Source: Lentzea tibetensis (lineage in GTDB: Bacteria > Actinomycetota > Actinomycetes > Mycobacteriales > Pseudonocardiaceae). From it: a stretch of 64,000 nucleotides of DNA. The notes below the pieces were generated by a model that searched no databases, was not told where the DNA came from, and saw only the letters and a program-made list of their open reading frames with translations. The stretch spans positions 62,001-126,000 of the forward strand of contig NZ_VOBR01000019.1 in assembly GCF_007845675.1 (NCBI RefSeq), in the 5' to 3' direction. This document shows positions 2,242-47,086 of the stretch, in pieces (position 1 is the stretch's first letter; every line of letters starts with the position of its first letter). Made by a program: the position numbers and the translations under genes.

Positions 2242-4715
2242 TGGAGCTGAAGATCCCTGACCTGTGCCTGGTCGTGCTGGTCGGCGCGTCCGGGTCTGGC
2301 AAGTCGACGTTCGCGCGCAAGCACTTCCTGCCGACGCAGATCCTGTCGAGCGACTACTTCCGCGGCCTCGTCGCGGACGACGAGAACGACCAGTCGGCGT
2401 CGGGTGACGCGTTCGACGTGCTGCACTACGTGGCGGGCAAGCGGCTCGACGCGGGCCGCACGACGGTGATCGACGCGACGAACGTGCAGCCGGGCGACCG
2501 CGCGCAGCTGATCGAGATCGCGCGCAGGCACAACGTGCTGCCGGTCGCGATCGTGCTGGACACGCCGGAGGAGGTCTGCCTCGCGCGCAACGCGCGGCGC
2601 CCGGACCGCGACTTCGGCGCGCACGTCGTGCGCAGGCACCGCACCGCGCTGCGCAAGTCGTTGAAGTTCCTCGGCAAGGAGGGCTTCAAGAAGGTGCACG
2701 TGCTCCGTAGTCAGTCCGAAGTGGACGATGCGACCATCGGGTACGAGCGCCTGCTGAACGACCTGCGCCACGAGACCGGCCCGTTCGACGTGATCGGTGA
2801 CGTGCACGGCTGCCGCGCGGAGCTGGAGGACCTGCTCGTCGAGCTGGGCTACGAGCTCGTGCGCGACGACGAGGGCCGCGCCGTCGACGCCGTGCCACCG
2901 GGGAACCGGCGTGCGGCGTTCGTCGGCGACCTCGTCGACCGCGGCCCGGACACGCCCGGTGTGCTGCGACTCGTCATGGGCATGGTCGAGTCCGGGCACG
3001 CGTTCTGCGTGTGCGGCAACCACGAGCAGAAGCTGGTGCGCGCGCTGCGCGGCCGCAACGTGCAGGTCAAGCACGGCCTGGCGGAGTCGCTGGCGCAGCT
3101 CGCCGCCGAGCCGGAGGACTTCCGCAGGCGCGCCGAGCGGTTCTGCGACGGGCTGGTCGCGCACTACGTCCTGGACGGCGGCGACCTCGTGCTCGCGCAC
3201 GCCGGCCTGCCGGAGCGCTACCACGGCCGGGCGAGCGCGCGGGTGCGCAGCTTCGCGCTGTACGGCGACACGACCGGCGAGACCGACGAGTACGGGCTGC
3301 CGGTGCGCTACCCGTGGGCGAACGAGTACCGCGGCCAGGCGATGGTGCTCTACGGGCACACGCCGACGCCCGAGGCCGAGTGGGTCAACAACACCATGTG
3401 CCTCGACACCGGTGTCGTCTTCGGCGGCAAGCTGACCGCGCTGCGGTACCCGGAGCGCGAGGTCGTTTCCGTTGCCGCGCACAAGGTCTGGTACGAGCCG
3501 GTGCGCCCGCTGGTCGTTCCGGAGGTGGAGCGCGAGCCGGACGTGCTGGCGCTGACCGACGTGCTCGGCCGCCGCACGATCGAGACCGCGCACCGCGGCC
3601 GCGTCACGGTGCGCCCCGAGCAGGCCGCGTCGGCGCTGGAGGTGATGAGCCGCTTCGCGATCGACCCGCACGAGCTGCTGTACCTGCCGCCGACGATGGC
3701 GCCGACGGCGACGTCGCGCCGCCCGGACGTGCTGGAGCACCCCGAGGACGCCTTCGCCGAGTACCGGTCCGCCGGTGTGCGCGAGGTGATCTGCGAGGAG
3801 AAGCACATGGGCTCGCGCGCGGTCGTGCTGGTGCGCCGCGAGGGCGGCGCGATCCACACCCGGACGGGCCGCGCGTTCTTCGCCGAGCCGCTGGGCTCGG
3901 AGCTGCTCTCGCGGGTCCGCGACGCGGTGACCGGCGCCGGGCTGTGGGACGAGCTCGACACGGACTGGCTGCTGTTCGACGCCGAGCTGCTGCCGTGGAA
4001 CGCCAAAGCGACCGGGCTGATCAAGGAGCAGTACGCGTCCGTCGGCGCGGCCGCGCTCGGCGTGCTGCCACCGGCCGTCGCCGCGCTGACGGCCGCCCGC
4101 GACCGCGGCGTCGACGTCGGGGCCCTGCTCGAGCGCACGACGTCGAGGCTCGCGAACGCGCACGGGTACTCGGCGGCCTACCAGCGGTACTGCTGGCCGA
4201 CCTCCGGCCTCGACGGCGTGCGGATCGCGCCGTTCCAGCTGCTCGCCGCGGCGGGCCGGACGTTCCACGACCGGCCGCACACCTGGCACCTCGACCTGGT
4301 CGCGCGGCTCACCGGCGACGTGTTCACGCAGACCAGGCACCTCGTGGTCGACACGGCCGACGAGGCGCAGGTGGCGGCGGGCATCAGGTGGTGGGAGGAG
4401 CTCACCGCCGGCGGCGGCGAGGGCATGGTGGTGAAGCCGCTGGCCAACCTGGTGCCGAACGTGCAGCCGGGCGTGAAGGTGCGCGGACGCGAGTACCTGC
4501 GGATCATCTACGGCCCGGACTACACCGAGCCCGCCAACCTCGAGCGGCTGCGGCAGCGCGGGCTCGGGAAGAAGCGGTCGCTGGCGCTGCGGGAGTACGC
4601 GCTCGGGCTGGAGGCGCTGGAGCGGGTCGCGCGCGGTGAGCCGCTGTGGCGCGTGCACGAGTGCGTGTTCGCCGTGCTGGCGCTCGAGTCGGAGCCGGTG
4701 GACCCGAGGCTGTGA
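2241..4715 (+). CDS. pnkp: Polynucleotide kinase-phosphatase-ligase Pnkp
   Basis: This 824-residue enzyme heals and seals broken RNA in complex with Hen1. Three modules are visible in order: a 5'-kinase with P-loop GASGSGKS at about residues 15-22; a 2',3'-phosphatase of the calcineurin type with IGDVHGC near residue 184, FVGDLVDRGPD and GNHE; and an adenylyltransferase/ligase domain with EEKHMGSR near residue 519, whose Lys would carry AMP. The length is close to the 870-residue Clostridium thermocellum enzyme. The family needs Hen1 to activate the ligase, which fits the TGATG overlap with hen1. All three active sites look intact. Confidence 0.95.
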   Translation: MELKIPDLCLVVLVGASGSGKSTFARKHFLPTQILSSDYFRGLVADDENDQSASGDAFDVLHYVAGKRLDAGRTTVIDATNVQPGDRAQLIEIARRHNVLPVAIVLDTPEEVCLARNARRPDRDFGAHVVRRHRTALRKSLKFLGKEGFKKVHVLRSQSEVDDATIGYERLLNDLRHETGPFDVIGDVHGCRAELEDLLVELGYELVRDDEGRAVDAVPPGNRRAAFVGDLVDRGPDTPGVLRLVMGMVESGHAFCVCGNHEQKLVRALRGRNVQVKHGLAESLAQLAAEPEDFRRRAERFCDGLVAHYVLDGGDLVLAHAGLPERYHGRASARVRSFALYGDTTGETDEYGLPVRYPWANEYRGQAMVLYGHTPTPEAEWVNNTMCLDTGVVFGGKLTALRYPEREVVSVAAHKVWYEPVRPLVVPEVEREPDVLALTDVLGRRTIETAHRGRVTVRPEQAASALEVMSRFAIDPHELLYLPPTMAPTATSRRPDVLEHPEDAFAEYRSAGVREVICEEKHMGSRAVVLVRREGGAIHTRTGRAFFAEPLGSELLSRVRDAVTGAGLWDELDTDWLLFDAELLPWNAKATGLIKEQYASVGAAALGVLPPAVAALTAARDRGVDVGALLERTTSRLANAHGYSAAYQRYCWPTSGLDGVRIAPFQLLAAAGRTFHDRPHTWHLDLVARLTGDVFTQTRHLVVDTADEAQVAAGIRWWEELTAGGGEGMVVKPLANLVPNVQPGVKVRGREYLRIIYGPDYTEPANLERLRQRGLGKKRSLALREYALGLEALERVARGEPLWRVHECVFAVLALESEPVDPRL

Positions 4716-4794
4716 GCACGCCGTCTCAAGTGGACGGCGTTCCAGGTCCACGCGAGGAGGAATCAAGGGGAGAACAGGACCGTTAATGATCCGT

Positions 4795-4828
4795 TTGCGC
4801 ACGATGTGCCCGGAAATGTTGCGCACGA
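4795..4828. promoter_or_regulatory. Paired direct repeat TTGCGCACGA upstream of rlaP
   Basis: The decamer TTGCGCACGA occurs at 4795-4804 and again, unchanged, at 4819-4828, 24 bp apart start to start. It lies in the 165-bp gap between pnkp and rlaP, 53 bp before the rlaP GTG. Tandem identical decamers on about the same helix face could be an operator. This is pattern only; no regulator is known. Confidence 0.35.
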
Positions 4829-4880
4829 GCATGTAACGCAACGACGCTGATCGGGAACGCGTCTGAGGGAGGGAGGTGTC

Positions 4881-5651
4881 GTGAGCTACGAGATACCAGA
4901 CCTGAGCGAGGTGGTGCGGGAGCAGCCGACACCGCTGCTCTTCGCGACCGTCTCCGGCGCGCACCTGTACGGGTTCCCGAGCCGTGACTCCGATGTGGAC
5001 CTGCGCGGCGTGCACATCCTGCCGGTCGAGGACGTCGTCGGCCTGCGTCCCGGCCCGGAGACGCTCCAGCGCATGTGGGTGCGCGACGGCGTCGAGCTGG
5101 ACCTGGTGACGCACGACCTGCTCAAGTTCTGCCGGTTGCTGTTGCGTCCCAACGGGTACGTGCTCGAACAGCTGCTGAGCCCGATCGTCGCGCACACGAC
5201 GCCGGGTCACCAGAAGCTGATCGGCCTGGCGCAGGACTGCGTCACGAGCAGGCACGCGCACCACTACCGGGGCTTCGCGCACACCCAGTGGCGGCTGTTC
5301 GAGCGGACCGGCGAGCTCAAGCCGTTGCTGTACACGTTCCGCGCGCTGCTCACCGGGGTGCACCTGATGCGCACCGGTGAGGTCGTCGCGCACCTGCCTA
5401 CGTTGCTCGACAAGCTGGACGGGCCCGGCTACCTGCAGCCGCTCATCGAGGCCAAGGAGCTGGGCGAGCACCGCGGGCTCGCCGGGGTGCCCTACCGGCC
5501 GGTGAAGTCACGCCTCGAGCAGGACGTGCGGGAGTGGCACGAGGAGCTGCGGCTCGCGCAGGAGGCCAGCGAGCTGCCGGAACGGCCCAGCGCGGACGAG
5601 GCCGTGAACGACCTCGTCATCGAGCTGCGCATCGCGACCCGGAAGACCTGA
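4881..5651 (+). CDS. RlaP-type nucleotidyltransferase (YcgL/COG3541 family)
   Basis: This 256-residue protein belongs to the DNA polymerase beta-like nucleotidyltransferases that accompany RNA ligases (RlaP, RNA-ligase-associated pol-beta). It shows ATVSGAHLYGFPSRDSDVDLRG near residues 25-45, with the G-S/A-x-x-x-G and D-x-D catalytic pattern, and an LDLVTHDLLKF strand. The start is a GTG preceded by GGGAGG. Its neighbours Hen1 and Pnkp are the published context of this family, where it is thought to act on the ends of damaged RNA. The gap and repeats upstream suggest it may have its own promoter. Substrate is not known. Confidence 0.85.
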   Translation: MSYEIPDLSEVVREQPTPLLFATVSGAHLYGFPSRDSDVDLRGVHILPVEDVVGLRPGPETLQRMWVRDGVELDLVTHDLLKFCRLLLRPNGYVLEQLLSPIVAHTTPGHQKLIGLAQDCVTSRHAHHYRGFAHTQWRLFERTGELKPLLYTFRALLTGVHLMRTGEVVAHLPTLLDKLDGPGYLQPLIEAKELGEHRGLAGVPYRPVKSRLEQDVREWHEELRLAQEASELPERPSADEAVNDLVIELRIATRKT

Positions 5652-5663
5652 CGACCAGTAGAG

Positions 5664-6128
5664 CTAGACCAGGTCCAGCCAGGCGTGACCGGGGTGCACG
5701 CGCTCCAGCAGCTCGGCCAGCCGTTCGCGGGCGGACGCGCGCAGCCACGGCAGCGTCGACTCGAGGTCCGCCGTCGCCTTCTGCTCGGCCTTGAACAGCA
5801 GCACGAACTCGGGCCGCAGGTAGCGGACACCGCCGCTCTCCCACGTCACGTCGTCCAGCGGCAGCACGACGGACGGGTCGAGCGGGAACACCCAGTTCCC
5901 GTCGGCCGAGCTGTTCAGCCACACGTCCAGCGAGCCCGCTGCCAGCCGATCGGGCGACACCCGTGTGAGGCCGGGCAGCGCCGCGGCCAGTGAGGGCAGG
6001 TCGTCGGCGAACAGGGTGAGATCGGTGTCCGGGTGCGGCCTGCGCACGGCCGTGAACTGCGCCAACGCTCGGCTACCCCCGATCCACCACGGGACGGGCA
6101 GGTCGAGCAGCTGATCCGGTAGGTCCAC
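5664..6128 (-). CDS. Nucleotidyltransferase-like protein (aminoglycoside adenylyltransferase fold)
   Basis: This 154-residue protein begins MDLPDQLLDLPVPWWIGGSR and continues with RRPHPDTDLTLFADDLPSL, matching the WW-x-x-GG-x-A...DxDL pattern of small nucleotidyltransferases related to aminoglycoside 2''-adenylyltransferases. The later block YLRPEFVLLFKAEQK is also typical of that group. Members with this length are widespread in actinomycetes and most have no known substrate, so a resistance function should not be assumed. It converges with rlaP, the stops being 12 bp apart. Confidence 0.7.
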   Translation of the reverse strand: MDLPDQLLDLPVPWWIGGSRALAQFTAVRRPHPDTDLTLFADDLPSLAAALPGLTRVSPDRLAAGSLDVWLNSSADGNWVFPLDPSVVLPLDDVTWESGGVRYLRPEFVLLFKAEQKATADLESTLPWLRASARERLAELLERVHPGHAWLDLV

Positions 6129-6364: not shown

Positions 6365-7242
6365 GCGTCCACCTTCTCATGCACGCCCGCGAACAGGTCG
6401 TCCTCGGGCAACGTGCTGTCGACCAGCGACCGCGCCAGCTCGTACTCCTCGGTCGGCCACACCTCGCGCTGCACGTCGAGCGGCACGATGAACCACCGGC
6501 TGTTCGGGTCGATCTGGGTCGCGTGCGCCTTCAGCGCGTCGTCGCGCTGCGGGAAGTAGTCCGCGCACTCGACGCGCGTCGTCACCCGGTCGATCACGTC
6601 CGGGCGGTCCGGATCCCAGTTCGCGAGCCACTCGGTGTACGGCGACTCGATGCCGCGGGCCTCCAGCGCCTCGTGGAACGCGGTCAGCTTCGCGCGCGAG
6701 AACCCGTGCGAGTAGTAGAGCTTCAGCGGCTGCCACGGCTCGCCAGCCTCGGGGAAGCGGTCCGGGTCGCCCGCGGCGTCGAACGCCTCGATCGACACCT
6801 CGTGGGTGCGGATGTGGTCCGGGTGCGGGTAGCCGCCGTTCTCGTCGTAGGTGACGATCACGTGCGGGCGGAACTCGCGGATGACCTCCACCAGCGGCGG
6901 GACGGACTCCTCGAGCGGGACCACCGCGAAGCAACCCTCGGGGAGCGGCGGCAGCGGGTCGCCCTCGGGCAGGCCCGAGTCGACGAACCCGAGCCAGCGG
7001 TGCTGGATGCCGAGGATCTCGGCGGCACGCGCCATCTCGTCCCTGCGGACCTCGGCCATGTTCTCCAGCACCTCGGGCCGGTCCATGGCCGGGTTGAGGA
7101 CGCTGCCGGCCTCTCCACCGGTACAGGTCACGACCATCACCTCGTGACCTTCGGCAACGTAGCGGGCCATCGTGGCCGCTCCCTTGCTCGACTCGTCATC
7201 GGGGTGCGCGTGCACCGCCATCAGGCGCAGCTTCTCGACCAT
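6361..7242 (-). CDS. mca: Mycothiol S-conjugate amidase
   Basis: Mca cleaves mycothiol S-conjugates to release a mercapturic acid for export, a detoxification step specific to actinomycetes. The 293-residue protein shows the zinc-binding AHPDDE near the N-terminus, [20 protein letters not shown] and the C-terminal WPTEEYEL typical of Mca. The ATG at 7242 is preferred over a TTG seven codons upstream because GAGGAGG overlaps that TTG's next codons and is well spaced for the ATG. MshB is the close relative, but the length and C-terminus fit Mca better. Confidence 0.93.
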
Positions 7243-7354
7243 GACCCCCGCGGTCCTCCTCAACCCTGAACCCTGCTGGTCGGAGCCGGACAGGCTCCTG
7301 CGACACTCACAACCGAACGTCGTACATCATTGTTCCCCACGGGTAGGAGGGCGC

Positions 7355-7777
7355 GTGAAAGTGGCAGAACGCGCACTCCCCGAGGGGCGGTACGGCACGA
7401 AGAAGGCACCGCGGCCGTGGCTCCGCTGGTCGTTACTCGGCGTAGCGCTGCTCGTCGGGCTCGCCGTCACCTTCATCGGCTATCGAAATCTCGGCACCAA
7501 ACCGATCGAGTCGAAGCAGACGTCCTTCGTGATCGTCGACGACGGATCGGTGAAGGTCACATTCGAGGTTTCCCGGGACACTCCGGAACGACCCGCGGTT
7601 TGCATCATTCGGGCCCGCTCGAAGGACGGCGACGAAGCCGGTAGACGCGAAGTTCTCGTACCGCCGGGGAATTCGATCGTCCGCGAGACAACTCTTTTGC
7701 ACACGTCGAAGCCCCCGGTCACCGGCGAGGTGTTCGGGTGCTCCTACCAGGTTCCCGCATATTTGTCCACGACCTAG
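7355..7777 (+). CDS. DUF4307 domain membrane protein
   Basis: This 140-residue protein has a basic N-terminus (RYGTKKAPRPWLRW), one transmembrane helix near residues 26-46 and an extracytoplasmic beta-rich domain (VKVTFEVSRDTPERPAVCIIRARSKDGDEAGR). The pattern is that of DUF4307, a family commonly found between mca and greA in actinomycetes. The GTG start follows GTAGGAGG with four bases spacing; in-frame codons further upstream are antisense to mca. Function is unknown. Confidence 0.85.
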   Translation: MKVAERALPEGRYGTKKAPRPWLRWSLLGVALLVGLAVTFIGYRNLGTKPIESKQTSFVIVDDGSVKVTFEVSRDTPERPAVCIIRARSKDGDEAGRREVLVPPGNSIVRETTLLHTSKPPVTGEVFGCSYQVPAYLSTT

Positions 7778-7970
7778 CGGCCAAGCGGGTGATCTGCGGG
7801 TTTAACGGCGAGATCGGGAACAATTGATCTCCGCTGATCGTTGTGTGCGTGTTACTCTTGACGCTCAGCACGGCCCCGGCGCGGGCCGTGTTTTTCCGTT
7901 CCGGGCGCACGCGCCCGGGAACTGCCGGCCCGTACACGCGGGCTTGGAGCAAGACGAGGAGTTGGTGACC

Positions 7971-8459
7971 GTGAGCGACACCCAGGTGACCTGGTTGACC
8001 CAGGAGGCCTACGACCGGCTCAAGCACGAGCTGGACGAGCTGATCAACAATCGCCCGGTCATTGCTGCCGAGATCAACGCCCGCCGTGAAGAGGGCGACC
8101 TCCGCGAGAACGGCGGCTACCACGCCGCTCGCGAGGAGCAGGGCAAGCAGGAGGGGCGAATTCGTCAGCTCCAGGAGCTCCTGCAGGCCGCCAAGGTCGG
8201 CGAGGCCCCCACCACCAAGGGCGTTGCGGCACCAGGGACCGTGCTCACAGTTCGCTACGAGGGTGACGACGAGACCGAGGACTTCCTGCTGGCCACTCGC
8301 GAGGAAGGCACTGAGGGCGGGATCGAGGTCTACTCCCCCGCGTCCCCGCTCGGCAAGGCGCTGCTCGGCGCCAAGGACGGCGAGACCGTCTCGTACGAGC
8401 TGCCCAACGGCAGCACGCAGAAGGTCACGCTGATCAAGGCAGTTCCGTACTCGGGCTGA
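7971..8459 (+). CDS. greA: Transcription elongation factor GreA
   Basis: GreA rescues backtracked RNA polymerase by stimulating cleavage of the nascent transcript. The 162-residue protein has the coiled-coil N-terminal domain with the acidic tip [20 protein letters not shown], and a C-terminal FKBP-like domain ending [21 protein letters not shown]. The GTG at 7971 gives [17 protein letters not shown], matching mycobacterial GreA, and lies about 9 nt from GAGGAG; the GTG at 7965 would be too close. A perfect hairpin follows the gene. Confidence 0.96.
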
Positions 8460-8471
8460 CCCCACAGACAC

Positions 8472-8508
8472 CGAAGGGGCGGCCACCAGCGAGGTGGCCG
8501 CCCCTTCG
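8472..8508. terminator. Perfect hairpin between greA and the Lrp gene
   Basis: A 16-bp perfect stem (8472-8487 with 8493-8508) and a 5-nt loop AGCGA sit between the convergent greA and lrp-like genes. It has no long T-tract, but its symmetry would let it end transcription in both directions. Confidence 0.8.
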
Positions 8509-8526
8509 TCTTGTGCGCTGCCGATT

Positions 8527-10276
<1,750 letters not shown>

Positions 10277-43596: not shown

Positions 43597-43617
43597 GCGC
43601 AGAACCCTACTCGCCGG

Positions 43618-43895
43618 TCAGAGATCGAACGCGGCGAGCGGAGCGCGGCGCGGATCCGGCCGCCGAGCGAGCACGCCGGCCACAGGTTCGCGGCCGCCGC
43701 GTCGAGACGGCGTCACCAGCGTTCCCCGTCGCGCATGGCCGAGACCAGCTCATCCGCGTCCGCTCCCGGCTCCGCGAGGGCACGATGCGCGCGATCGCTT
43801 TGCCCCGGTTGGTGATCTCAACGATCTCACCGCGCTCGACCAGCTCCAGCACACCTGCGGTGTTCTGCTTCCGTGCCAGACCGTGGCCCGGATGG
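43618..43895 (-). pseudogene. Decayed Phd/YefM antitoxin - PIN toxin pair
   Basis: Minus-strand translation gives NTAGVLELVERGEIVEITNR and GKAIARIVPS, the core of a Phd-type antitoxin. Then a frameshift is needed to continue into EPGADADELVSAMRDGERW followed by a stop. After that only VAGVLARRPDPRRAPLAAFDL and a stop remain, like the C-terminus of a PIN-domain toxin. The antitoxin N-terminus (near 43895) also requires a frame change. The 81-residue open frame over this stretch is read-through of the broken gene, not a product. Confidence 0.7.
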
Positions 43896-43996: not shown

Positions 43997-44073
43997 TGGT
44001 GCCCCCGACGGGATTCGAACCCGTACTGTGATCCTTTTAAGGGACCTGCCTCTACCGATTGGGCTACGGGGGC
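43997..44073 (-). tRNA. tRNA with UAA anticodon and short variable arm
   Basis: A 77-nt cloverleaf with encoded 3' ACCA. The acceptor is GCCCCCG/CGGGGGC; the D stem is 3 bp (GCC/GGC) with GG in the loop; the anticodon stem is GGTCC/GGATC with loop CTTAAAA; the variable loop is ACAGT (5 nt); the T arm is ACGGG-TTCGAAT-CCCGT. With C32 and T33 fixed, positions 34-36 are TAA, which would read codon UUA. Canonical tRNA-Leu has a long variable arm, absent here, so the amino acid identity is uncertain. Confidence 0.85.
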
Positions 44074-44183: not shown

Positions 44184-45299
44184 TCATGATCGGCCCCTCC
44201 CCGCTCCCAGCAGCTCCTTGAACCTGGTGGCGACCCAGTCGTGCACGGCCGCGGACACGGAGTTGTCCTGCGCGCGGTGCTCGAACCAGCGCCAGTCGCA
44301 GTTGACGTTGATCTCCAGGAACACGTGGTCCTTGCCCGTGACGAGGAGGTCGAACGCGGCGACCTGCACGCGCCAGTGCCGGGCCAGCGCCAGCAGTCGG
44401 TCGGCCAGCCCGTCCGGAACGGACGTGGGCGTCACGCGCACCGCATCAGGATCCACCCAGAGCTGCGCGGGGTCGAGCTTGTCGACCTGGTAGGCGATGC
44501 ACCGCTCGCCGACGACGAAGACGCGCAGCTCGGTGTCGGACGGCACGTACTCCTGCACGATCACCGGTGCGGGCTCGGCGACGCCGCCCGCCCGCGAGGT
44601 CTCCAGCGGGCGCGGGAACAGGCCGTGCTGCACGCCTGGGCGTGGCTCCAGCAGGTGCCGTCCGGCCGTCTTGACGATGCAGCGGCCGCCGCCGGGGCGG
44701 GTGCGGCCCGGACGCGTCGTGACGGCGGTGCGCGGGATGCGCAGGCCGAACGCGGCGGCGTCGGACAGCTGGGTCAGGCGGTCGAGGTGGGTCGTGGAGC
44801 GCGCCGGGTTCACGTGGGCCCAGTCGCTGCGCGAGGAGAGCCAGTTCGCGACCGAGTTCCACTGGTCGACGGCGTACGCGCCGGCCAGGGTGCCGGGCTC
44901 GACGGGGAGTGCGGAGAGCTCGAAGTGCCTGCGCCACACCAGCAGGGGCCTGAGCAGCCAGCGGTCCAGTTCGAGCAGCGGCTGGTCGGTGTAGACCGAG
45001 AGCGGGATGTCCAGGCAGCGGTCAGCGTCGATGCGGGCCATCCGGATGCCGCGTTCGGCCAGTGCGATGGAGAGCTCGTTCATCTCCATGTCGGCCGCGC
45101 GGGCGAGCACCAGGACGCACGGTTGGGGGCTGCCGTCACCCTCGTCGACCATGCCGAGGCGGTGGACCTGCTCCTGGAAGTCGAGACACTTCGGCGGGGA
45201 CCGGAAGAGGTAGTCCTGTCCCTGCAGCAACAACGGTCTGGCAGCTTCGGACGGGGCGTCGCCTCCGCTTGGTCCCCGCCCTTCAGCTGACCTGGTCAA
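44184..45299 (-). CDS. ATP-grasp ligase, candidate RiPP (graspetide-type) maturase
   Basis: This protein of up to 371 residues has a pre-ATP-grasp part (VLVLARAADMEMNELSIALAERG, RIDADRCLDIPLSVYTD, LLRPLLVWRRHFE), then an ATP-grasp fold: RCIVKTAGRHLLEPRPG, VIVQEYVPSDTELRVFVVG, VQVAAFDLLVTG and FLEINVNCDWRWFE with metal-binding residues. This resembles the MvdD/MdnC-like ligases that build ester or amide bonds between side chains. The start is uncertain: the TTG at 45299 overlaps the stop of the upstream peptide gene, a GTG lies at 45323 and an ATG at 45152. Codon use looks coding from about 45205 on. Confidence 0.8.
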   Translation of the reverse strand: MTRSAEGRGPSGGDAPSEAARPLLLQGQDYLFRSPPKCLDFQEQVHRLGMVDEGDGSPQPCVLVLARAADMEMNELSIALAERGIRMARIDADRCLDIPLSVYTDQPLLELDRWLLRPLLVWRRHFELSALPVEPGTLAGAYAVDQWNSVANWLSSRSDWAHVNPARSTTHLDRLTQLSDAAAFGLRIPRTAVTTRPGRTRPGGGRCIVKTAGRHLLEPRPGVQHGLFPRPLETSRAGGVAEPAPVIVQEYVPSDTELRVFVVGERCIAYQVDKLDPAQLWVDPDAVRVTPTSVPDGLADRLLALARHWRVQVAAFDLLVTGKDHVFLEINVNCDWRWFEHRAQDNSVSAAVHDWVATRFKELLGAGRGRS

Positions 45300-45418
45300 T
45301 CGTCCTTCTTGCTGCGGAAACACTTCCCTGCGTTGGCGTACTCGGCGGCGTACTGCGCCAACGCGGGGTCCTCGATCTCACCGCGACGAAGCTGTGCGGC
45401 CAGCTCCTCGAGAGACAT
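45296..45418 (-). CDS. 40-residue peptide, candidate precursor for the ATP-grasp ligase
   Basis: An ATG eight bases after GAGAGGTG opens a 40-residue peptide: MSLEELAAQLRRGEIEDPAL then AQYAAEYANAGKCFRSKKDD. It is highly charged, probably helical at first, and ends with a single Cys and the tail RSKKDD. It is too short for standard gene callers. It overlaps the likely start of the ATP-grasp gene, and a sigma-70-like promoter lies upstream. Precursor status is inferred from position and size; the cross-linking acceptors could be Ser, Lys, Asp or Glu in the last ten residues. Confidence 0.65.
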   Translation of the reverse strand: MSLEELAAQLRRGEIEDPALAQYAAEYANAGKCFRSKKDD

Positions 45419-45476
45419 CGGGATCACCTCTCTCCCCACACAGGCGGATCACGCATTCAGGTGATGCACCAGCGGT

Positions 45477-45505
45477 AGTCTCTGGTTCACGTTACGCAAT
45501 GTCAA
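45477..45505 (-). promoter_or_regulatory. Candidate promoter of the peptide/ATP-grasp unit
   Basis: On the minus strand TTGACA (45505-45500) and GAGACT (45482-45477) are separated by 17 bp, 59 bp upstream of the peptide ATG. The -35 is perfect; the -10 is weak. Confidence 0.5.
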
Positions 45506-45566: not shown

Positions 45567-45603
45567 GCCCCGCCGCTAGAGCCAAATGAGGCAGCGACGG
45601 GGC
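45567..45603 (-). terminator. Terminator of the NDH-2 gene
   Basis: An 11-bp stem with one G-U pair (45593-45603 with 45567-45577) encloses a second small stem GCC/GGC. It begins 16 bp after the ndh stop and isolates ndh from the peptide/ATP-grasp unit downstream. Confidence 0.7.
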
Positions 45604-45618
45604 CATCACCCGCAGTGA

Positions 45619-46944
45619 TCAGCTCTTGACCGCGCGGTCGAACTCATCCTTCGGGTCGTTGATCTGACCCAGAGCGACGACCTCACGACCGTAGAACAAC
45701 GCCTGCGTCCAGTCCATGAGCACGCGGAGCTTGCGGTTCACGGTCGGCACGAACGCCACGTGGTAGCTGCGGTGCATGAACCACGCGATCGCACCCTTGA
45801 AGCGCAGGCCGAACACGTCCGCGACGCCCTTGTAGAGGCCGAGGCCCGCGACCGAACCGAGGTACTTGTGGAAGTACTCCTTCGGCTCCTTGCCGCGCAG
45901 CGTCGCGATGATGTTCTTCGAGAGCAGCTTCGACTGGCGGATGGCGTGCTGCGCGTTCGGCACGCACGTCGCCGTCGGGTCCTCCTCGATGCGCGACAGG
46001 TCCGGCACGGCCGAGCAGTCACCGGCGGCCCAGACACCCGGCAGGCCCTGCACCTGCATCGCCGCGGTGCACCGGACGCGGCCGCGCTCGTCGAGCGGGA
46101 GGTCGGTGTTGCGCAGCATCGGGTTGGCCTTCATGCCGGCCGTCCAGATGATCGTGTCCGAGTCGAACTCGGTGCCGTCGTCGAGAACGACGTGGCCGCC
46201 CTCCATCGACTTCACGCGGGTGTCGAGGAAGCACTTGATGCCGCGCTCCTCGAGCCGCTCGACGGTGTACACGCCGAGCTTCGCGCTCACCTCGGGCATG
46301 ATCCGGCCGGTCGCCTCGACCAGCACCCAGTTCATGTCCTCGCGCTTGAGGCCCTCGTAGTAGCGCAGCGCGTAGCGCGCCATGTCCTCGAGCTCGGCCA
46401 GGGTCTCGATACCCGCGAAGCCGCCGCCGATGACCACGAAGCTCAGCAGCCGCTTGCGCAGGTCCGGGTCGTTCGTGCTCGCCGCCTGGTCGAGGCGCGA
46501 CAACACGTGGTTGCGCAGGTAGATCGCCTCGCCGATGGTCTTCATGCCGATGCCGACCTCGGGCAGGCCGGGAATGGGCAGTGTCCGCGAGATCGCACCC
46601 AGTGCGGACACGAGCACGTCGTACTCGTACTCCTCGATGTGGCCGTCCGCGAGCTCGACGGTCACGGCCTTGCGCGCGTGCTCGATGCGGGTCGCGCGGC
46701 CGGTGACGACGTGGCAGCGGTTCAGCACCTTGCGCAGCGGCACGACGACGTGGCGCGGCTCGATCGAACCAGCGGCCGCCTCGGGGAGGAAGGGCTGGTA
46801 GGTCATGTGCGGCTGCGGGTCGATGACAGTCACCGACGCCTCACCGGATCGCAGTTTCTTCTGCAACCCGAGCGCGGTGTACATGCCGACGTACCCACCG
46901 CCGACGATCACGATCCGAGTGGGTTGCGACTTCACAGCAGCCAT
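45619..46944 (-). CDS. ndh: Type II NADH dehydrogenase
   Basis: NDH-2 transfers electrons from NADH to the quinone pool without pumping protons. The 441-residue protein has the FAD motif IVIVGGGYVGMYTALGLQKKL, FVVIGGGFAGIETLAELED for NADH, IIWTAGMKANP, GVWAAGDCSAVPD and a C-terminal membrane-associating region (AIAWFMHRSYHVAFVPTVNRKLRVLMDW). The ATG at 46944 matches the usual N-terminus; the frame upstream is not supported. Confidence 0.93.
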   Translation of the reverse strand: MAAVKSQPTRIVIVGGGYVGMYTALGLQKKLRSGEASVTVIDPQPHMTYQPFLPEAAAGSIEPRHVVVPLRKVLNRCHVVTGRATRIEHARKAVTVELADGHIEEYEYDVLVSALGAISRTLPIPGLPEVGIGMKTIGEAIYLRNHVLSRLDQAASTNDPDLRKRLLSFVVIGGGFAGIETLAELEDMARYALRYYEGLKREDMNWVLVEATGRIMPEVSAKLGVYTVERLEERGIKCFLDTRVKSMEGGHVVLDDGTEFDSDTIIWTAGMKANPMLRNTDLPLDERGRVRCTAAMQVQGLPGVWAAGDCSAVPDLSRIEEDPTATCVPNAQHAIRQSKLLSKNIIATLRGKEPKEYFHKYLGSVAGLGLYKGVADVFGLRFKGAIAWFMHRSYHVAFVPTVNRKLRVLMDWTQALFYGREVVALGQINDPKDEFDRAVKS

Positions 46945-47086
46945 ACGCACATGGTCGCACCGAGACCCGCTTTCCCGCTCGCTCGCGAGGCCCGTTGTGA
47001 CCACGGTCGCCGCGTGATGCCGAACACCCATGCCAACGACCTGCGGCGCTCCTGAAACACCTAGTGAAGACGCTGAGAGGAGCGAT

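Follow-up and report, generated by a model that had tools for sequence, protein, structure and literature searches.

Graspetides are usually regarded as specialised products with variable cores. As set out in part of the account by Carter et al. (2026; PMC13097080), their synthetases activate a carboxylate by phosphorylation and direct a nucleophile towards it, and groups 27, 28 and 35 consist of a synthetase and a precursor only. According to the main text of Makarova et al. (2022; PMC8939145), the leader motif Phhx(1,2)h occurs in about half of the precursors, and branch 6 of the ATP-grasp enzymes is accompanied by precursors of two clusters (367 and 1115) that are distantly related to each other and have neither a GG nor a Phhx(1,2)h motif, and, in most loci, by a SagB-like nitroreductase, with no chemistry or function given there. 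Here we describe a 64,000-nucleotide stretch of the genome of the soil actinomycete Lentzea tibetensis, referred to as the window, in which the gene for a 40-residue peptide is followed on the minus strand by that for an ATP-grasp ligase. The reading that we favour, tentatively and with a probability of about 0.45, is that of a graspetide-like system in which the ligase would activate a C-terminal Asp of the peptide and join it to a neighbouring Lys, encoded at a fixed chromosomal site in part of the family Pseudonocardiaceae. Among the papers listed in literature searches there was no other study of this peptide–ligase pair.

A preliminary description of the window had coupled a short peptide to an ATP-grasp gene, and both open reading frames (ORFs) indeed lie on the minus strand where it placed them, with a probable overlap of four nucleotides. 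It had also named beforehand the finding that would speak against such a coupling, namely a peptide that is not conserved upstream of homologous ligase genes. A ligase scan of genome contigs yielded 74 loci, one of which (L105) was dropped as its contig ends inside the ligase gene. In all 73 complete loci the best match to the window peptide in local alignment was an ORF upstream of the ligase gene and on the same strand, and this recurrence excludes a chance origin of the peptide ORF. In a sample of 150 Pseudonocardiaceae genomes, which overlaps with the contig set and is not independent of it, a peptide profile built from 28 rows matched 56 genomes, once each. All 56 peptides are encoded on the same contig as the ligase (median distance 68 nt, largest 1044 nt) and ndh (median 202 nt). 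A ligase orthologue or a fragment of it was found in 57 of the 150 genomes, and five more have only distant ATP-grasp proteins; the sole ligase match without a peptide is a fragment at a contig end in a genome that is 74% complete. The 56 genomes represent all sampled members of 18 genera (six with one genome each; genus labels were compared by hand), and no genome of the other 28 sampled genera of the family has the peptide. Among 298 genomes of the order there were 11 matches, all within the family of the window, and 396 genomes of the phylum gave only the genome of origin and one match of 23 residues (E 0.007) that we take as chance. A plasmid search gave no match.

The peptide is under purifying selection, which is strongest on its end, [K/R]KDD. 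All 73 peptides terminate in KDD, and the preceding residue is Lys in 72 cases and Arg in one (L073). The comparisons of start sites, selection, upstream regions and tails used peptides picked by their KDD end, and the invariance of the tail itself rests on the unfiltered local alignment of the 73 loci together with the 56 genome profile matches, every one of which reaches position 40. For 36 distinct genes of 40 codons, the ratio of nonsynonymous to synonymous differences (pN/pS) is 0.26 overall, 0.21 for residues 2–27, 0.50 for residues 28–36 and 0.007 for the last four, and for 23 distinct genes of 39 codons it is 0.35 overall and 0.34 and 0.56 for the same first two blocks. The peptide has 40 residues in 49 loci and 39 in 24, and this one-residue difference can be placed just before KKDD such that the distance to the C-terminus is kept. 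Residues 1–27 contain conserved Leu, Ala, Arg, Gly and Tyr. The usual Thr/Ser...Glu/Asp core is absent, as the preliminary description had noted: Thr or Ser near the tail is not conserved, and Lys and Asp are nearly invariant but adjacent. The emphasis that had been laid on the single Cys could not be maintained. Its column holds Cys in six of the 49 longer peptides, which otherwise have Val, Ser, Ile or Arg, and in none of the 24 shorter ones, and the residue was rejected as a reactive site on the grounds that the column is not conserved. A conceivable cleavage site, the doublet Ala30-Gly31, is not general either (Gly31 in 32/49 and 0/24, respectively), and the Phhx(1,2)h motif is matched by those peptides that have the Pro, at position 18 or 19, but these are just 41 of the 73.

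The ligase is closest to the graspetide macrocyclases and has the fold of these enzymes, which lead in both sequence and fold comparison and bear out its earlier designation as MvdD/MdnC-like; among the matches listed, the next-ranked folds are ArgX with LysW and RimK (one entry with RpsF). The best-scoring curated model is TIGR04187 (GRASP_SAV_5884), with 84 bits against a cut-off of 350. RimK models also stay below their cut-offs (TIGR00768, 17.8 against 143.4 bits; PF08443, 12 against 21 bits), and the RimK Pfam model is weakly matched by 22 of 27 members. Because all curated cut-offs are missed, the ligase is considered a divergent member of the MvdC/MvdD/GRASP type. Its nearest named relatives stem from Lentzea (about 90–96% identical). 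Locus L103, recorded as Nocardia sp. NRRL S-836, falls within Lentzea on the ligase tree and is probably mislabelled, and in L064 (Actinosynnema pretiosum) the ligase frame contains some 200 additional Pro/Ala-rich residues ahead of the conserved domain. The genome from which the window stems encodes a second, distant ATP-grasp protein (L140, contig C69, ~4371–6126, minus strand; 33% identity over part), followed by a PIMT-like methyltransferase gene and located near a transposase-like ORF (both judged by eye).

On the minus strand, the order of genes in the window is ndh, peptide gene, ligase gene and tRNA-Leu(TAA). The tRNA gene lies downstream of the set in 60/60 and 12/13 loci, i.e., in 72 of 73, and the exception, L047, terminates at a contig end. 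Twelve family genomes without the pair, chosen for convenient strand and contig from the 94 without a peptide match, all have tRNA-Leu(TAA) after ndh, at a distance within about 350 nt in 11 (in one of them on the other strand) and of about 1.9 kb in the remaining genome. The position of the set between ndh and tRNA-Leu(TAA) is thus a constant one, reached by ancient insertion or vacated elsewhere by later loss. As the two border genes adjoin in the examined genomes without the set, ndh, which is present in 141 of the 150 family genomes, marks an address and provides no evidence of a respiratory role; a reading of the neighbourhood in that sense was rejected. Pairwise distances for ndh, the ligase and the peptide are correlated (Pearson 0.92–0.93) and the ligase diverges at about the rate of ndh (slope 0.97; mean identity 74.5% versus 76.9%), which is what vertical inheritance would lead one to expect. 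Beyond these borders, a gene judged by eye as MoxR-like is common to at least 38 of the 73 loci, a lower bound since it sits close to the ends of the 5-kb flanks, and the protein genes downstream in the window are common to just 0 to 2 loci among the 73. One minus-strand ORF at 43607–43852 of the window has a sub-threshold match to the Phd/YefM antitoxin family (E 0.027).

In 21 of the 73 loci, the ligase gene is followed, with a short overlap, by a gene for a protein of about 356 amino acids. These loci belong to Saccharothrix, Umezawaea, Actinosynnema, Solihabitans, Streptoalloteichus, Longimycelium and Actinoalloteichus. Among the 56 family genomes, the third gene overlaps the ligase match by 14–17 nt in 15, and a sixteenth (G061), in which it is split over contigs, was judged by eye. 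All four proteins scanned exceed the cut-off of TIGR03605 (SagB family peptide dehydrogenase; 104 to 120 bits, cut-off 78.4); they stay below that of TIGR04511 (putative peptide maturation dehydrogenase) and match PF00881, and SagB-type dehydrogenases and McbC are among the closest relatives of known structure. Of the downstream ORFs, the 40 that are shared best (at least 120 amino acids, at least 20 loci) all fall into the SagB-family stretch or its extension into the ligase, and the view that the locus comprises no further gene was dropped once the SagB-family gene had been found downstream in relatives. The site in the window lacks it and the remaining genome contains only distant partial matches (best E 5.5e-16), so that the term minimal two-gene system, used in the preliminary description, holds for the window but not for 21 of the 73 loci.

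Outside the family, the strongest ligases among 394 genomes of the class are 35–42% identical. The best of these sister ligases (L122 and L141) adjoin a SagB-family gene, an MFS-like gene (by eye) and an unrelated 56-residue ORF, which in L141 (~6871–9641, minus strand; ligase identity 42%) ends in YYCKGCHGG. A 30-residue ORF 5′ of four sister ligases is not claimed as coding, its differences being spread over all codon positions, and no peptide ending in DD or KD was found in nine sister loci. The same position and overlap of the dehydrogenase gene in distant genera, together with its presence beside the sister ligase of L141, lead us to favour loss over gain, also in Lentzea. A peptide, an ATP-grasp ligase and a SagB-family dehydrogenase would then constitute the fuller form of the system, and the two-gene form of the window is probably reduced, given the occurrence of the third gene in 21 loci and beside a sister enzyme outside the family. 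The role of the dehydrogenase is puzzling, because SagB-type enzymes are described as making azoles from Cys, Ser or Thr (PMC8939145, main text) and in four of the 21 SagB-bearing loci none of these is present among the last eight peptide residues. Peptide tails do not differ systematically with the presence of the gene. A family genome without the ligase (L148, ~4786–6050, plus strand) carries a SagB-family gene (45% identical) adjoining a large ORF that looks like a regulator (by eye) as well as a 40-residue ORF (MHDEDEDEFLYELEAEYKAQ...), possibly a separate peptide system.

The peptide–ligase pair probably forms a transcript of its own, as judged from the signals collected in Table 1. The longest possible ligase ORF starts with GTG at 45323 and thus within the peptide gene. 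In relatives (n = 73) a plausible ligase start adjoins the peptide stop, with the exception of L078, where it is at +56; it is TTG, overlapping the stop codon as TTGA, in Lentzea and Actinosynnema and mostly ATG or GTG, 1–6 nt past the stop, in other genera. We therefore consider the shorter ligase gene given in Table 1 the probable one. In several genera (L052, L074, L079, L095 and others) the peptide and ligase frames are in phase with one stop codon between them. A promoter had been proposed, and TTGACA and GAGACT are indeed conserved, TTGAC[A/T] being located 82–98 nt ahead of the peptide start in 72 of 73 loci and accompanied, when a single strict pattern is applied, by a -10-like box in 52, but a generic scan of the window found neither a sigma-70 promoter nor a terminator at the pair. 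The proposed terminator that would isolate the pair from ndh fares similarly: there is a hairpin, but it has no T run, and a stretch missing three of its bases only modestly beats shuffled sequences (z -1.75). The corresponding hairpins of relatives are strong in L033 (z -5.8) and L052 (z -3.7) and modest in L080 (z -1.8). A conserved TCACCTGAA-like element 3′ of the promoter boxes, which in Lentzea has a TCAC...GTGA dyad, may be an operator or a leader signal. Its region folds no better than shuffled sequences (z -0.25), and an Rfam search returned just the tRNA plus a sub-threshold match over the same tRNA; on these grounds the idea of a structured RNA 5′ of the pair was rejected.

Table 1. 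Features of the peptide–ligase locus (positions in the window)
Feature	Position	Strand	Remark
Peptide gene, 40 amino acids, MSLEELAAQLRRGEIEDPALAQYAAEYANAGKCFRSKKDD	45296..45418	-	ATG at 45418, stop 45296-45298; span includes the stop
ATP-grasp ligase gene, 371 amino acids	44184..45299	-	Start probably the TTG at 45299, which overlaps the peptide stop as TTGA
KKDD tail codons	45299..45310	-	Most constrained part; also AAGGA, possible ligase ribosome site
Peptide ribosome site, AGAGGTG	45425..45431	-	From sequence; within conserved block
Conserved element TCACCTGAATGCGTGA	45449..45464	-	3′ of the promoter and 5′ of the ribosome site; from 63 distinct aligned upstream sequences
-10-like box, GAGACT	45477..45482	-	Conserved upstream
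-35 box, TTGACA	45500..45505	-	17 nt from the -10-like box; TTGAC[A/T] in 72/73 loci
Hairpin after ndh	45567..45603 (about)	-	Possible terminator without T run; from sequence, missed by generic scan
ndh, type II NADH dehydrogenase	45619..47031	-	Upstream border; 73/73 loci, 56/56 genomes; nearest solved relatives of NDH-2 type
tRNA-Leu(TAA)	43997..44073	-	Downstream border; downstream in 72/73 loci

Modelled alone, the peptide forms helices at residues 3–11 and 18–35, with a mean predicted local distance difference test score (pLDDT) of 65 (68, 70, 70 and 52 by block). When it was tethered to the ligase, pLDDT values of 87, 84 and 78 over residues 1–30 and of 44 over residues 31–40 were obtained; a mean of 73.5 was reached by one in five tethered models, the alignments used alone and tethered differ, and the models were judged by pLDDT, not by coordinates. 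They weakly suggest a docked leader and a mobile tail. The following sequence of events can be envisaged. The pair would be expressed from its own promoter with coupled translation, and residues 1 to about 33 would serve as a helical recognition leader. The ligase would phosphorylate the side-chain carboxylate of Asp39 or Asp40, which would then be joined to the side-chain amine of Lys37 or Lys38 with a loss of 18 Da. As Lys and Asp are the sole conserved reactive side chains near the tail, the simplest interpretation is a Lys–Asp lactam right at the C-terminus. Where present, the dehydrogenase may oxidise the peptide further, as its family suggests, and it adds weight to peptide maturation. 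A nearly invariant tail and genus-fixed presence would point to a constant role for the producer.

Several observations weigh against the favoured reading. The ligase scores well short of all curated cut-offs (84 bits against 350); modelling of the tail is poor, and just one in five tethered models attained the mean given above; position 37 is Arg in one of 73 peptides (L073); and the pN/pS of 0 for the last four residues of the 39-residue group says little, because silent changes are few there (pS 0.13). With a Lys–Asp spacing of i+1 to i+3 the ring would be unusually small compared with the i+4 of the KIVAD motif in corallotide, as described in part by Carter et al. (PMC13097080). Finally, on a quick ligase tree the SagB-family gene requires at least four changes, three of them forced by well-supported branches (sister locus L122 counted as having it), a count that does not discriminate between gain and loss of the dehydrogenase.

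The main rival, unlikely but to be taken seriously, is that an outside amine, i.e., an amino acid, a polyamine or another protein, is ligated to the terminal Asp carboxylates, comparable to RimK acting on S6 or LysX/ArgX on LysW. It would account for the constraint on the extreme C-terminus and for a length difference that leaves the distance to the end unchanged, and it is in line with ArgX with LysW and RimK (one entry with RpsF) as the folds next behind the graspetide enzymes, among the matches listed, and with the weak RimK Pfam match of 22 of 27 members. On the other hand, graspetide enzymes are ahead in sequence and fold, the SagB-family gene in 21 of 73 loci suggests peptide maturation, and a LysW-type tail is lacking. 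A conventional secreted natural product of graspetide type, its protease and transporter being encoded at other loci, would explain this third gene as well as the sister locus L141 with its SagB-family gene, MFS-like gene (by eye) and another small ORF, and ATP-grasp loci typically do not include a gene for the leader peptidase (PMC8939145, main text). Such a product is nonetheless improbable to us as well, though deserving of real weight, since the tail is nearly invariant over 18 genera, the single-copy gene is present in all sampled genomes of these genera and the ligase has a rate of divergence close to that of ndh.

We consider it very unlikely that the peptide, instead of being the substrate of the ligase, serves as its partner or regulator. 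Partner-dependent graspetide enzymes have been published (described in part of PMC13097080) and residues 1–27 do contain conserved Leu, Ala, Arg, Gly and Tyr, but the most constrained residues are Lys and Asp, donor and acceptor types, in a tail that is modelled as disordered. Even less can be said for a mere translational-coupling leader, the end of which would be kept as ribosome site of the ligase gene and which we deem extremely improbable. The ligase start is only a few nucleotides from the peptide stop in most loci and AAGGA lies just upstream; however, AAA at the second Lys in 15 of 73 loci breaks AAGGA and keeps Lys, the last Asp is encoded by GAT in 25 of 73, the tail is retained in L078 although the first possible ligase start is 56 nt away, and the remaining peptide is also under amino-acid selection. 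A pure ribosome-site effect on KKDD was thus rejected on the basis of the silent changes in the tail codons. More speculatively, the ligase could have been recruited for a constant function in its own cell, forming at [K/R]KDD the shortest known Lys–Asp crosslink or a new C-terminal addition, with SagB-family oxidation in some genera of a peptide without conserved Cys, Ser or Thr near its end, such that a peptide-derived cofactor or signal arises; we rate this far-reaching scenario as quite unlikely.

Our preferred reading, a graspetide-like Lys–Asp ligation, can now be set against the characterised systems. With MdnC, MdnB, AMdnB, PsnB, CdnC and PruB, the ligase shares the fold, the aligned catalytic positions and the adjacent small peptide gene, whereas it is only 17–22% identical to them and possesses a conserved N-terminal extension (LLLQGQDY...LDFQE), and the core of its peptide is cut down to [K/R]KDD without a conserved Thr/Ser donor. 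Unlike the actinobacterial maturases of TIGR04187 (GRASP_SAV_5884), the pair has no methyltransferase that we could recognise beside it. RimK with S6 and LysX/ArgX with LysW comprise, as is proposed here, ATP-grasp enzymes that act on the acidic C-terminus of a small protein, but they match the ligase less well in sequence and fold. LysW-type carriers end in EDWGE, and the peptide, with its tail [K/R]KDD, does not. The corallotide system shares the single Lys–Asp isopeptide per motif that is proposed here, but its motif (KIVAD) is repeated in a large precursor, an oxygenase is involved and it is confined to Corallococcus, according to the portion of PMC13097080 that describes it.

Clusters 367 and 1115 of branch 6 very probably cover the group analysed here, a match made by described architecture, not by cluster sequences: a precursor without motif, an ATP-grasp enzyme and a SagB-like enzyme are combined as in 21 of the 73 loci, though not in the window (PMC8939145, main text). 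The new precursor class considered in the preliminary description gains no support, given that a very similar group has been published; in the main text of that paper 'KKDD', 'Saccharopolyspora' and 'Pseudonocardi' do not occur. With just two genes and 40 residues, the system offers a very compact way of testing how such ligases choose donor and acceptor, and the genera with and without the SagB-family dehydrogenase form a natural set for asking what this enzyme does to a peptide without the usual azole-forming residues. In comparison with the described systems, ligase and substrate look genus-fixed at one chromosomal address, with a four-residue end that is nearly frozen, and what seems to be new is this [K/R]KDD end with the selection acting on it, the genus-fixed site between ndh and tRNA-Leu and the occurrence of a two-gene beside a three-gene form.
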